NCBI GenBank assembly: GCA_012517675.1
Contig: JAAYUL010000014.1
Span: 1 to 33,590 of the forward strand
Reading direction: 5' to 3'
Source: Clostridiales bacterium
GTDB taxonomy: Bacteria > Bacillota > Clostridia > Oscillospirales > Acutalibacteraceae
DNA: 33,590 nucleotides
The position numbers and the translations under genes were made by a program. Shown piece by piece: positions 29,239-33,590 of this stretch; position 1 is the first letter of the stretch, and every line of letters begins with the position of its first letter. The notes under the pieces were generated by a model, which ran no database searches, was not told the DNA's origin, and saw only the letters and a list, made by a program, of their open reading frames with translations.

Positions 29239-29919
29239 TTATATATGAAAAATAAAATTCGTCTTTTTTTCATTGTACCAAAATGATGTATTTACCCTTT
29301 GAATGTCATCATAATAATAATCCTGCTCTTTTAAACTAAGAAAAGAATTATAGCTTAATTTTTCATTTGTTACATAACCATAATCGTCAACTGACAGTAT
29401 GCATAAAGGAAGAGATACGAAAGAAATCAACGCTGAAGCAACTATTAATTTTTTCCAATCACCACCGCGAGATTTTGAATTAAAAACAACGGTTGTTGAA
29501 GCAATTAAAATTGGAATTTCTGAATTGTAACAAACCCAAAATACATATATTATTGCGAAAAAAAGTAGCCCAATGATACCCAAAAAATAGGAATCTGTCC
29601 GGAACACGATCAGTGCGTTTTTCGGTGCAATCAAAAACTTTTGAACGCAGATTGTCAATCCATCATATAAGCCGATCAAAACGGCACACATTGGTATATT
29701 GGTTAATATCGGAGCCCAGTGGTTTCTGGAGCCTAAACGGTAATAGTCAGATTCTTTTTCGTACCAAAATGATTGACGATAGTTATCCCAACCCTTTATG
29801 CGGTCGTACTTGTTATTATTCATAAAAATATCTATCAGTTTTAAAATCAGGTATCTCATAAATATGATATACAGAAGCGTTAATAGGATAAAAATCAATA
29901 AGTTCATGTTAAGCCTCAA
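29239..29919 (-). CDS. Hypothetical multi-pass membrane protein (226 aa)
   Basis: AT-rich ORF with several hydrophobic segments; preceded by GAGG SD-like sequence on the minus strand. Confidence 0.6.
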   Translation of the reverse strand: MRLNMNLLIFILLTLLYIIFMRYLILKLIDIFMNNNKYDRIKGWDNYRQSFWYEKESDYYRLGSRNHWAPILTNIPMCAVLIGLYDGLTICVQKFLIAPKNALIVFRTDSYFLGIIGLLFFAIIYVFWVCYNSEIPILIASTTVVFNSKSRGGDWKKLIVASALISFVSLPLCILSVDDYGYVTNEKLSYNSFLSLKEQDYYYDDIQRVNTSFWYNEKKTNFIFHI

Positions 29920-30244: not shown

Positions 30245-30297
30245 ATGTAAACCTCCATTGTGGTGCTTCTATTCTACACCACAACGGAGGTTTACAT
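30245..30297. repeat. 21-bp inverted repeat (one mismatch), 11-nt loop
   Basis: ATGTAAACCTCCATTGTGGTG ... CACCACAACGGAGGTTTACAT. Confidence 0.9.
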
Positions 30298-30305
30298 AAA
30301 ATTCG

Positions 30306-30751
30306 GGACGGCCTCAAAACGGGGAAAATATCGTCTTCCTCGGTCCGCCCGGCGTGGGAAGACCCATCTGGCCTCAGAATTGGGGCTGGTTGCCGCCAAG
30401 CATCGATTCTCCACTTATTACATCAACTGCCACGCCCTGATTGAGCAGCTCAAGAAGGCCTATTATGAAAACCGTCTGCCGGACAAGCTCAAAATTCCGG
30501 GCAAATACAAAATGCTCATCATTAATGAAATCGGCTATTTCCCGATGGATATTCAGGGGAAGAACTTGTTCTTTCAGCGCATCGCCAGACGATACGAGAA
30601 TGCCTCCACAATCTTTACCTCCAACAAGACCTTTTCCCAGTGGAACGAGATCTTCGCCGATGTCACCATCGCCTCTGCTATCCTTGCCCGTGTTCTGCAA
30701 CACTGTACTGTCGTCAATATCAAAGGCGAGAGCTACCGGCTCAAAGAATGA
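30306..30751 (+). pseudogene. istB: IS21-family helper ATPase IstB, N-terminally truncated and frameshifted
   Basis: Two frames together give PQNGENIVFLGPPGVG / GKTHLASELGL...KMLIINEIGYFPMDIQGKNLFFQRIARRYENASTIFTSNKTFSQWNEIFADVTIASAILARVLQHCTVVNIKGESYRLKE. Confidence 0.88.
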
Positions 30752-31374: not shown

Positions 31375-31410
31375 ATGTCGAGATAAAATAGTATTCGGAG
31401 GTATCTCTTT

Positions 31411-31974
31411 ATGAGTAAAAAAGAGAAAGACACATATGTCAAAAAGAAGAAGGACATGAATTTCCAGAGCGTGGAATCCATGCAGTCAGTTGTTAATGTT
31501 GTAAACGAGGCTGCAGCGGCTCTGAATGATAAGAATCGTACCATCAAAGAAAGTGCAATTCCAGAAGTTTTGGCTGGTGCTCTGGGAGCCGGTATTGGCG
31601 GCGTAGGTTCTTTTGCAGCTCTTTACGGTCTTGGCGTTGTTGGATTATCTGCTGCTGGTATCACATCTGGTCTCGCTACAGCAGGTGCGTTAATTGGTGG
31701 TGGTATGGTCGCCGGAGTATTTGTTCTTGCAGCTCCGGTCGCAGGCCTTGCTGCTGCGGGGGTGGGTATTGCCTCTCATCTGAAGAATAAACAGTTACGG
31801 CAGGAAAAGGAACGTTTATACAAAGAAGCCTTGAAGAAGCATGAGGCTATAATTAAGGCAATGAAGACAGAAGCCGATGCTGACAAGGAGAGAATGGATT
31901 ATTTGCAGAGCCTCAATATTCTATTGCAACAGGCTATAAAGGATCTACAGAAAGATCTGGGGATTGCTTCATGA
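31411..31974 (+). CDS. Uncharacterised membrane-associated protein with Gly/Ala-rich hydrophobic core flanked by charged helices (187 aa)
   Basis: GGAGGT SD; LAGALGAGIGGVGSFAALYGLGVVGLSAAGITSGLATAGALIGGGMVAGVFVLAAPVAGLAAAGVGIA core. Confidence 0.85.
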   Translation: MSKKEKDTYVKKKKDMNFQSVESMQSVVNVVNEAAAALNDKNRTIKESAIPEVLAGALGAGIGGVGSFAALYGLGVVGLSAAGITSGLATAGALIGGGMVAGVFVLAAPVAGLAAAGVGIASHLKNKQLRQEKERLYKEALKKHEAIIKAMKTEADADKERMDYLQSLNILLQQAIKDLQKDLGIAS

Positions 31975-33350
31975 GTAAATATAACTATAGTGAAGTTGAG
32001 AAACAGATTAATACCGTTCTCGCCCATCAGGAAAAGGAATTATTCGAAATACATCGTCCCTCAATATCTGCTGTAAATGATAGGATTTCTGAAAGCGAAG
32101 CTCTTTTGGAGAGCCTCGGATATGGCAGACAACTTTCAGAGTTGAGAGCAGCGACTCGAAATGTGCCAGCAGAAGTACCGAGAAAGGTTATGGTTGTTCC
32201 ATCATGGGAGAATCTTTGCCTTGAAGCAGAAAGAAGCGCAGGGACAGGCAGCGAACTGGAAGATATATTTACTCCTGAAGAACTGGCCAATAACAATAGA
32301 GCAATTCAGCAATTAAATGAAGAGTACAATGTATTACATCGTCTGGACAAATATGATATTGCAATAAGTGCGGCAGCAGGATTGCTCGGCGCAGCCATAG
32401 ATATTTTGCTGGTGGGTATTCCGCAGAAGACACCTGAAGGTCTTAAAGGCGGGACTCTTGCGAATTACGTCAGGGACTGGTTTGACAGGAAATTCCCGGA
32501 AGAAGAGATGGAAAAACTGGCTAATTCCAAGGTCAGTAAGGTTCCCTTTGATGCGCAGGATAATCGAAATACAACGGTACATGTTGAAGGGTTGTCTGCA
32601 TATTATCATCGACTTCTTTCTCTTGGGCATGATCCTTTGCTTGGTCTAATATTTGGAGTGGCGGATATTCTAACAGGAAAAATGACCACGATCGATAAGA
32701 CCGGTAAAATTGTGTCTCAGGTTATGGAAAACTATGCTGATCGAAAAGAAACAGATATCTTTGCAGCAATCGCAAAACAGATAATTCATTTCAAATCAGA
32801 TATAACAACATCGATGGGACTTCCTGCTCCATTGATGGGATTATTCAATCTTTTGCAGGTTGGTGAAATTGGAGAATATGATCAGACCATTGCAGAGATT
32901 GTGCAGGGCATGTATTACGAGGGGTACGATTTCATACATTTCTGTACGCTGTCCATACCGGTCATGATTGTTGAAGTGGTAACAAGGATAGGGTATGCTT
33001 TCAAGCGAATCAAGGAAGGGTACTCTATCAAAGAATCCATTCCTTTTTCACTTGATCGAGAGAAGCATCCAAAGTTGGCGACAATGCTGTTCATCGGGCA
33101 TTCTGCGGCAACTGCTGTTAATGCTGGAAAAGTGTATTTTACGCAGAATCCAATGGCAATCAATTATCCGCAGTGGATAGCTTTTGCAAAGTATTCATAT
33201 CAGCAATTGAAATGGGTGTTAATAGAAAAGCCGAGTGCGCGTGACGGTTATGTTCGAGGAATAATAAACGAGCAACTTGCTGAGATATTTGAAGATGTAG
33301 ATTCTACTTTTGATGAAATCTCTGCAGATTATATTGTAGTATTTGAGTAA
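31971..33350 (+). CDS. Uncharacterised protein with hydrophobic segments (459 aa), coupled to preceding gene
   Basis: ATGA overlap; DIAISAAAGLLGAAIDILLVGIP and HDPLLGLIFGVADILTGK segments; no recognised enzyme motif. Confidence 0.85.
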   Translation: MSKYNYSEVEKQINTVLAHQEKELFEIHRPSISAVNDRISESEALLESLGYGRQLSELRAATRNVPAEVPRKVMVVPSWENLCLEAERSAGTGSELEDIFTPEELANNNRAIQQLNEEYNVLHRLDKYDIAISAAAGLLGAAIDILLVGIPQKTPEGLKGGTLANYVRDWFDRKFPEEEMEKLANSKVSKVPFDAQDNRNTTVHVEGLSAYYHRLLSLGHDPLLGLIFGVADILTGKMTTIDKTGKIVSQVMENYADRKETDIFAAIAKQIIHFKSDITTSMGLPAPLMGLFNLLQVGEIGEYDQTIAEIVQGMYYEGYDFIHFCTLSIPVMIVEVVTRIGYAFKRIKEGYSIKESIPFSLDREKHPKLATMLFIGHSAATAVNAGKVYFTQNPMAINYPQWIAFAKYSYQQLKWVLIEKPSARDGYVRGIINEQLAEIFEDVDSTFDEISADYIVVFE

Positions 33351-33363
33351 AAATAAACAGACC

Positions 33364-33408
33364 AAGGCTTCCACACTGCCATCAGCGGTAGTAAGGGAGC
33401 CTTGTTTT
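33364..33408. terminator. Bidirectional terminator between the two-gene operon and the convergent recombinase
   Basis: AAGGCT...ACTGCC-ATCAGC-GGTAGT...AGCCTT then GTTTTA. Confidence 0.7.
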
Positions 33409-33590
33409 ATGCTTCGATATCAATTGTGATGCCGGACTTGAATTCCACGGTGAAGTGGTCGGCGAAGACGGTAATCTTTTCGATGAGCTTTCTGACCAGA
33501 GCCTCATCAAACTCTGTGATGTCAGCTTCTTGCCCGGCGATGAAGTCTTGCAGCTCCCTGATCCGTTTCATGAGTTCTTCCCGGTGGTGG
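33407..33590 (-). CDS. C-terminal end of a site-specific serine recombinase (5' end outside window)
   Basis: Minus strand HHREELMKRIRELQDFIAGQEADITEFDEALVRKLIEKITVFADHFTVEFKSGITIDIEA*; typical tail of Firmicutes large serine recombinases. Confidence 0.8.
   Translation of the reverse strand, partial: HHREELMKRIRELQDFIAGQEADITEFDEALVRKLIEKITVFADHFTVEFKSGITIDIEA

Follow-up and report, generated by a model that had tools for sequence, protein, structure and literature searches.

A compact, mobile two-gene operon in a Clostridiales genome is a predicted variant of the Bunzi anti-phage system

Bunzi, a pair made up of BnzA and BnzB, is an anti-phage system that was reportedly described by Millman et al. 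in 2022. In a list of defence systems the mechanism of Bunzi is given as unknown (PMC12926258), and a link between Bunzi and TerB has also been listed (PMC10952713). Two reference BnzA proteins span positions 3-534 and 2-543 of the BnzA model. In this study, a two-gene operon from a Clostridiales bacterium was analyzed in a stretch of DNA of 33,590 nucleotides (referred to as the window), and its two proteins, A and B, were compared with BnzA and BnzB. On the basis of sequence comparison the operon is assigned as a compact, mobile and so far unannotated variant of Bunzi that lies within a large clade, and its anti-phage activity is predicted from this family membership. Bunzi itself was already known, and the novelty lies in a compact architecture that lacks the N-terminal portion of BnzA. 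The operon is classed as a variant and not as a plain member because the BnzA N-terminal part was looked for and was missing.

The operon and its two proteins

The features of the operon and of related loci are collected in Table 1. The ATGA overlap between the genes indicates translational coupling. The G+C content of the operon is 0.41-0.45 vs about 0.50-0.64 across most of the upstream window. The hairpin that follows B (CCAAGGCUUCC...GGGAGCCUUG) has a folding energy of -26.2 kcal/mol (z=-4.4) that was matched by 0/200 shuffles, and it is kept in a 95.6% identical relative (L058) with substitutions inside the stem; a simple terminator scan left it unflagged. Comparison with relatives gave a pS of ~0.8 for both genes and a pN of 0.06-0.16 for A and 0.10-0.23 for B. 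This purifying selection indicates that both ORFs are real genes, with A being the more conserved of the two. The original prediction had described two ATGA-coupled ORFs of 187 and 459 aa with a clear Shine-Dalgarno sequence, a downstream bidirectional terminator and a lower GC content than the backbone, and these features are all borne out.

Table 1. Coordinates of the operon, its flanks and selected related loci (positions without a locus name are those of the window)
Feature	Position	Strand	Basis or detail
Gene A, 187 aa	31411-31974	+	ORF list
Gene B, 459 aa	31971-33350	+	ORF list
ATGA start/stop overlap of A and B	31971-31974	+	sequence reading
Shine-Dalgarno GGAGGT of gene A, 8 nt 5' of ATG	31397-31402	+	sequence reading
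Hairpin terminator, common to operon and convergent - strand gene	33363-33404	.	folding and relative
Segment common to window and L058, 95.6% DNA identity	31130-33569	.	2.44 kb, including recombinase tail
IstB_IS21 remnant	30260-30748		PF01695 2e-41
C-terminal tail (DUF4368) of probable serine recombinase	33407-33589	-	Pfam E=4e-4, just short of cut-off
226-aa membrane protein gene	29239-29919	-	low GC, without Pfam family
Second recombinase-tail copy, same genome	G000 contig C66:1-199		91%
B-A fusion, 802 aa	L039:259-2667	-	Bacillota genome
B-A fusion, 794 aa	L040:640-3024	+	Bacillota genome
ADP-ribosylglycohydrolase-A fusion	L022:3619-4995	+	PF03747 1.5e-34
ADP-ribosylglycohydrolase-A fusion	L136:3993-6011	+	sequence likeness
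A with preceding fused ~260-aa domain	L129:4502-5848	+	no Pfam match
HTH locus	L071:4542-5090		
HTH locus	L072:2558-3061		
HTH locus	L077:4569-5051		
HTH locus	L079:4546-5085		
HTH locus	L134:4487-5080		
Reversed-order pair	L142:4076-6629		Lactiplantibacillus plasmids
Phage locus with truncated A	L041:7789-9362		Streptococcus phage phi-SsuFJNP8_rum
Distant A-B pair	L191:4836-7585		IncHI2 plasmid R478

Protein B is identified as a BnzB homologue from its sequence. Residues 76-420 match the PADLOC BnzB model with E=3.9e-64, the model is matched by all 65 of the B relatives that were scanned (best 2.9e-106), and a BnzB encoded on a Lactococcus plasmid together with a full-length BnzA is matched both by BLASTP (8e-29) and by hhalign (4e-33, 99.9%). 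In 87 diverse BnzB proteins the residues D194, H213, H220, P222, G225, H273, D277, and P287 are invariant and form the pattern H-x6-H-x-P-x2-G ... H-x2-[ST]-D-x5-G-x-P-x-P. Three of these eight residues are neither H nor D, and invariance by itself is no proof of catalysis. The pattern resembles a possible metal-binding active site, and the invariant D194, H213, H220, H273, and D277 suggest that BnzB may be a membrane-associated metalloenzyme. The AlphaFold2 model of B (pLDDT 91.1) is nearly all helical with three hydrophobic stretches. A Foldseek search with this model, which had been suggested as a check, returned nothing below E=0.2 in the PDB and among the viral predictions of BFVD; with no relative of the fold found, the putative enzyme activity is suggested by residue conservation. 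The hydrophobic segments noted earlier for this protein agree with the three stretches, and the statement that it has no recognisable enzyme motif is corrected by the strictly conserved residue set, which was invisible to a reader of a single sequence.

Protein A has a charged N-terminus, a Gly/Ala-rich hydrophobic core of three hydrophobic stretches (residues ~53-121) that had been recognised in the original prediction, and a coiled coil (residues ~123-183). The window A alone matches the PADLOC BnzA model weakly (7e-4, with a core of biased composition) and aligns only to the internal model positions ~294-404 of 544. The model is matched by 34/34 of the A relatives (best 3.3e-14) over positions ~294-420. 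BLASTP against the full-length BnzA of a Vibrio plasmid (562 aa), a reference that covers the entire BnzA model at 3.9e-178, gave 2e-7 with an alignment that runs through the Gly/Ala core GLSAAG[IL]TSGL and then the coiled coil. Because the alignments cover an internal stretch, A is taken to be the membrane part of BnzA only, that is, the membrane core and the coiled coil minus the N-terminal ~290 and the C-terminal ~130 residues.

The N-terminal part of BnzA that is absent here may be needed for phage sensing. Pfam gave no TerB match in the window A, in which ~50 residues precede the membrane core, and it was also silent on both full-length BnzA references, so the TerB label depends on the literature (PMC10952713). 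A search of 399 genomes with the PADLOC BnzA model gave no match even in the window's own genome, which indicates that the model is very insensitive for the compact clade. As the A proteins of this clade score near noise, joint searches for BnzA and BnzB tend to miss it. The AlphaFold2 model of A is of low confidence in the core, much of which has a pLDDT <50. A presumed likeness of the A core to a motif of the animal interferon-induced proteins IFI6/IFI27 was dropped since PF06140 matched nothing in 101 genomes nor any control and was therefore uninformative; the Pfam matches listed for 12 A proteins, with E values up to 10, did not include it either.

The original prediction had proposed a candidate undescribed system and had named a clear match to a characterised family as evidence to the contrary. 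Such matches were found, to BnzB for B and to the membrane part of BnzA for A, and "undescribed" was therefore rejected. The broader proposal, in which the two genes form a self-contained, horizontally acquired cargo unit that has a membrane component and plausibly acts against phages, is supported, and the homology, operon, pairing, fusion, mobility and residue conservation are direct observations.

Pairing, architecture variants and mobility

Because the 26 BnzB aligned together were too diverse to serve as the query, GTDB genomes were scanned with a closer set, and relatives of BnzB with 41-97% identity were found at 80 loci. Most of these loci are from Clostridia and others are from Coriobacteriia, streptococci, other Bacilli, and some bins labelled Bacteroidales. 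In a midpoint-rooted FastTree tree of 85 BnzB the window falls into a large compact-A clade that is separate from the clade with full-length BnzA. The co-occurrence of the pair, another check that had been suggested, is confirmed: in 94 of 100 loci B is preceded by an A homologue in the same orientation, and of the six loci that deviate, two are on contigs that end at this point. In 86 of the 94 loci with A, the two genes overlap or lie no more than 40 bp apart. The distances of A and B co-vary (r=0.84, 69 pairs; permutation maximum 0.36), to which shared ancestry contributes partly. Natural fusions in the order B-A occur in two Bacillota genomes and point to a physical complex of A and B.

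The A protein is also found with additional domains and genes. It lies behind an ADP-ribosylglycohydrolase domain in two loci that occupy separate places in the tree, one of them assigned by likeness and with an extra repeat-like linker, and the A of L031 has an N-terminal TerB domain (Pfam 1.4e-5). In several loci A is immediately preceded by a gene for an HTH protein with a C-terminal hydrophobic segment, and a small TM/coiled-coil gene separates A from B. The simplest reading of these variants would be a fixed core, consisting of the A membrane module and BnzB, with a sensor that is exchangeable or absent. A division into three A types from a first count of upstream genes was rejected because, in the loci that were inspected, the "short" type was mostly this extra TM/coiled-coil gene, with a normal A in front of it.

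Three unusual arrangements were observed at other loci. In L129 the A protein is preceded by a fused domain, the Lactiplantibacillus plasmids have the BnzB-type gene first and a Gly-rich 369-aa membrane protein second, and in the Streptococcus phage B is intact and the last ~25 residues of A follow an unrelated start. The A-B locus of this phage adjoins tet(M) and a type VII secretion cluster.

The operon is, as judged from its distribution and flanks, mobile and horizontally acquired. B was found in 13/394 genomes of the order and in 1/11 genomes of the genus sample, which is the window's own, and relatives have different genes 3' of spo0A. The segment shared with L058 has a different upstream flank there, with an rRNA methyltransferase-like gene (sequence reading). 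DUF4368 occurs at the C-terminus of serine recombinases, and the convergent gene, of which the last ~60 codons are present because the contig ends there, is a probable serine recombinase. Of the predicted flanks, the IS relics are thus confirmed by the IstB_IS21 match and the recombinase is probable only. The genome has a second copy of the recombinase tail, which also lies where a contig ends, and the duplication is probably due to a multi-copy element that breaks the assembly. The 226-aa membrane protein gene, located between spo0A and the IS21 remnant, apparently belongs to the same insertion.

Relatives of 60-80% identity were found on IMG/VR contigs, in two phage records, and on Limosilactobacillus plasmids. 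A distant A-B pair, preceded by a trypsin-like protease gene, is carried by IncHI2 plasmids that include L044 and the reference plasmid R478. This pair is present in 16/5426 E. coli genomes, in 15 of which it is plasmid-borne, and 439 of the 473 plasmids carrying the distant copy are conjugative. The neighbours sampled at 53 loci (150 proteins) include recombinases, TnpV, AbiH (2), YhcG nuclease (2), DNA methylases, and many HTH proteins as well as housekeeping genes. As the sample has no control set, it describes the neighbourhood of the pair and does not measure an enrichment.

Proposed mechanism and alternative explanations

It is probable that in this compact mobile Bunzi variant A is the membrane module, BnzB is the likely effector, and the state of the membrane is the trigger. 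The Gly/Ala-rich core of A would insert into the inner membrane or rest on it, and the C-terminal coiled coil of A would keep BnzB there in an A/B complex. BnzB, an all-helical and membrane-associated protein whose H/D residues suggest a metal-dependent hydrolase with a metal site, would act on the membrane or on a membrane-bound molecule. In the full-length, fused or extended branches the trigger may be set by a sensor domain (the BnzA N-terminal part, TerB or ADP-ribosylglycohydrolase are candidates) or by an upstream gene. In the compact form it would probably be a membrane state such as the entry of phage DNA or a phage membrane protein. Infection would release or switch on BnzB and the predicted defence would be a halt in phage production, most likely via damage to the membrane of the infected cell.

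A wider reading, which we advance tentatively, is that A and BnzB are the core of a modular defence superfamily. The sensor would then be exchangeable: it could be the N-terminal part of BnzA, TerB, ADP-ribosylglycohydrolase or another N-terminal domain, it could be supplied by HTH-TM or protease genes, or it could be missing altogether. In this possible superfamily BnzB, with a fold unmatched in the PDB, might found a family of membrane metalloenzymes that attack the membranes of infected cells.

Three alternatives, which overlap and are not fully separate, were considered. It is unlikely that A is the killer, forming a membrane pore via its Gly/Ala core like the alpha-helical pore-formers, and that BnzB restrains or triggers it on infection. 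The hydrophobic core between helices and the coiled coil, the greater conservation of A, and matches of A to alpha-xenorhabdolysin A (0.0033) and to the SmhB subunit of a tripartite alpha-pore-forming toxin (0.0034) are consistent with such a pore, but these weak matches fall within stretches of biased composition or coiled coil, the invariant H/D set is in B and not in A, and the single-chain B-A fusion argues against a simple toxin-antidote pair. A membrane function other than defence, for instance in envelope stress or signalling, with the pair as a passenger on mobile DNA, is rather improbable; housekeeping neighbours at some loci and ADP-ribosylglycohydrolase and HTH partners that could be regulatory would fit it, whereas the placement of B inside the BnzB family used for defence annotation, the patchy distribution in the order and genus, and several defence-type neighbours do not. 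We consider it very doubtful that the pair is an exclusion module of phages and conjugative plasmids that stops competing phages or plasmids from entering at the membrane while the cell survives. The copies on phage genomes, IMG/VR contigs and conjugative plasmids would fit it, but they come from collections that hold only phages or plasmids by design, and most of the genome copies found are on bacterial genome contigs; this explanation is compatible with the main one.

The compact form separates the parts that are retained (membrane core, coiled coil, and BnzB with its eight invariant residues) from those that are optional, which provides direct mutants to test. It points to the compact pair as the minimal working core of Bunzi-type defence. 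The compact clade is present in many gut Clostridia, Coriobacteriia, and streptococci, and its distant form is on the IncHI2 plasmid R478.

Comparison with described systems

The alpha-pore-forming toxins xenorhabdolysin A and SmhB share a hydrophobic core and long helices with A, but the E values are only ~0.003, the score of A is 16.8 bits vs a family cut-off of 125, and the partner B is unrelated. YdjM/DUF457 proteins (PF04307) are putative inner-membrane metal-dependent hydrolases, and in the best profile alignment H273-x3-D277-x5-G283 of BnzB falls on the HxxxDxxxxxG motif of YdjM. The assignment of BnzB as a YdjM/PLC-like hydrolase was rejected: the motif register fits, but hhalign gave p=0.13 and a probability of 0.4%, which is not significant, the spacing of the first two histidines is 7 in BnzB vs 5 in YdjM, and Pfam gave no match.

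The C-terminal part of Eleos LeoBC (PADLOC) is weakly matched by 33/34 A relatives (best 9.8e-5), whereas the window match is 17 bits and is confined to the Gly-rich core and coiled coil; the window operon, with two genes only, has no dynamin-like LeoA gene. PDC-M09 is a PADLOC candidate with A and B components on which a literature search found no paper. PDC-M09A matches the membrane core of some A relatives (best 1.9e-5) as well as the long A of L030 and L031, and PDC-M09B matches one B relative, but the window A and B match BnzA and BnzB instead. Bunzi and the window operon have in common the A-B gene order, the tight coupling, the BnzB homology, and the Gly/Ala membrane core and coiled coil in A. 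They differ in the size of A (187 aa here vs ~550 in Bunzi) and of B (459 aa vs ~510) and in the separate BnzB clade to which the window B belongs.
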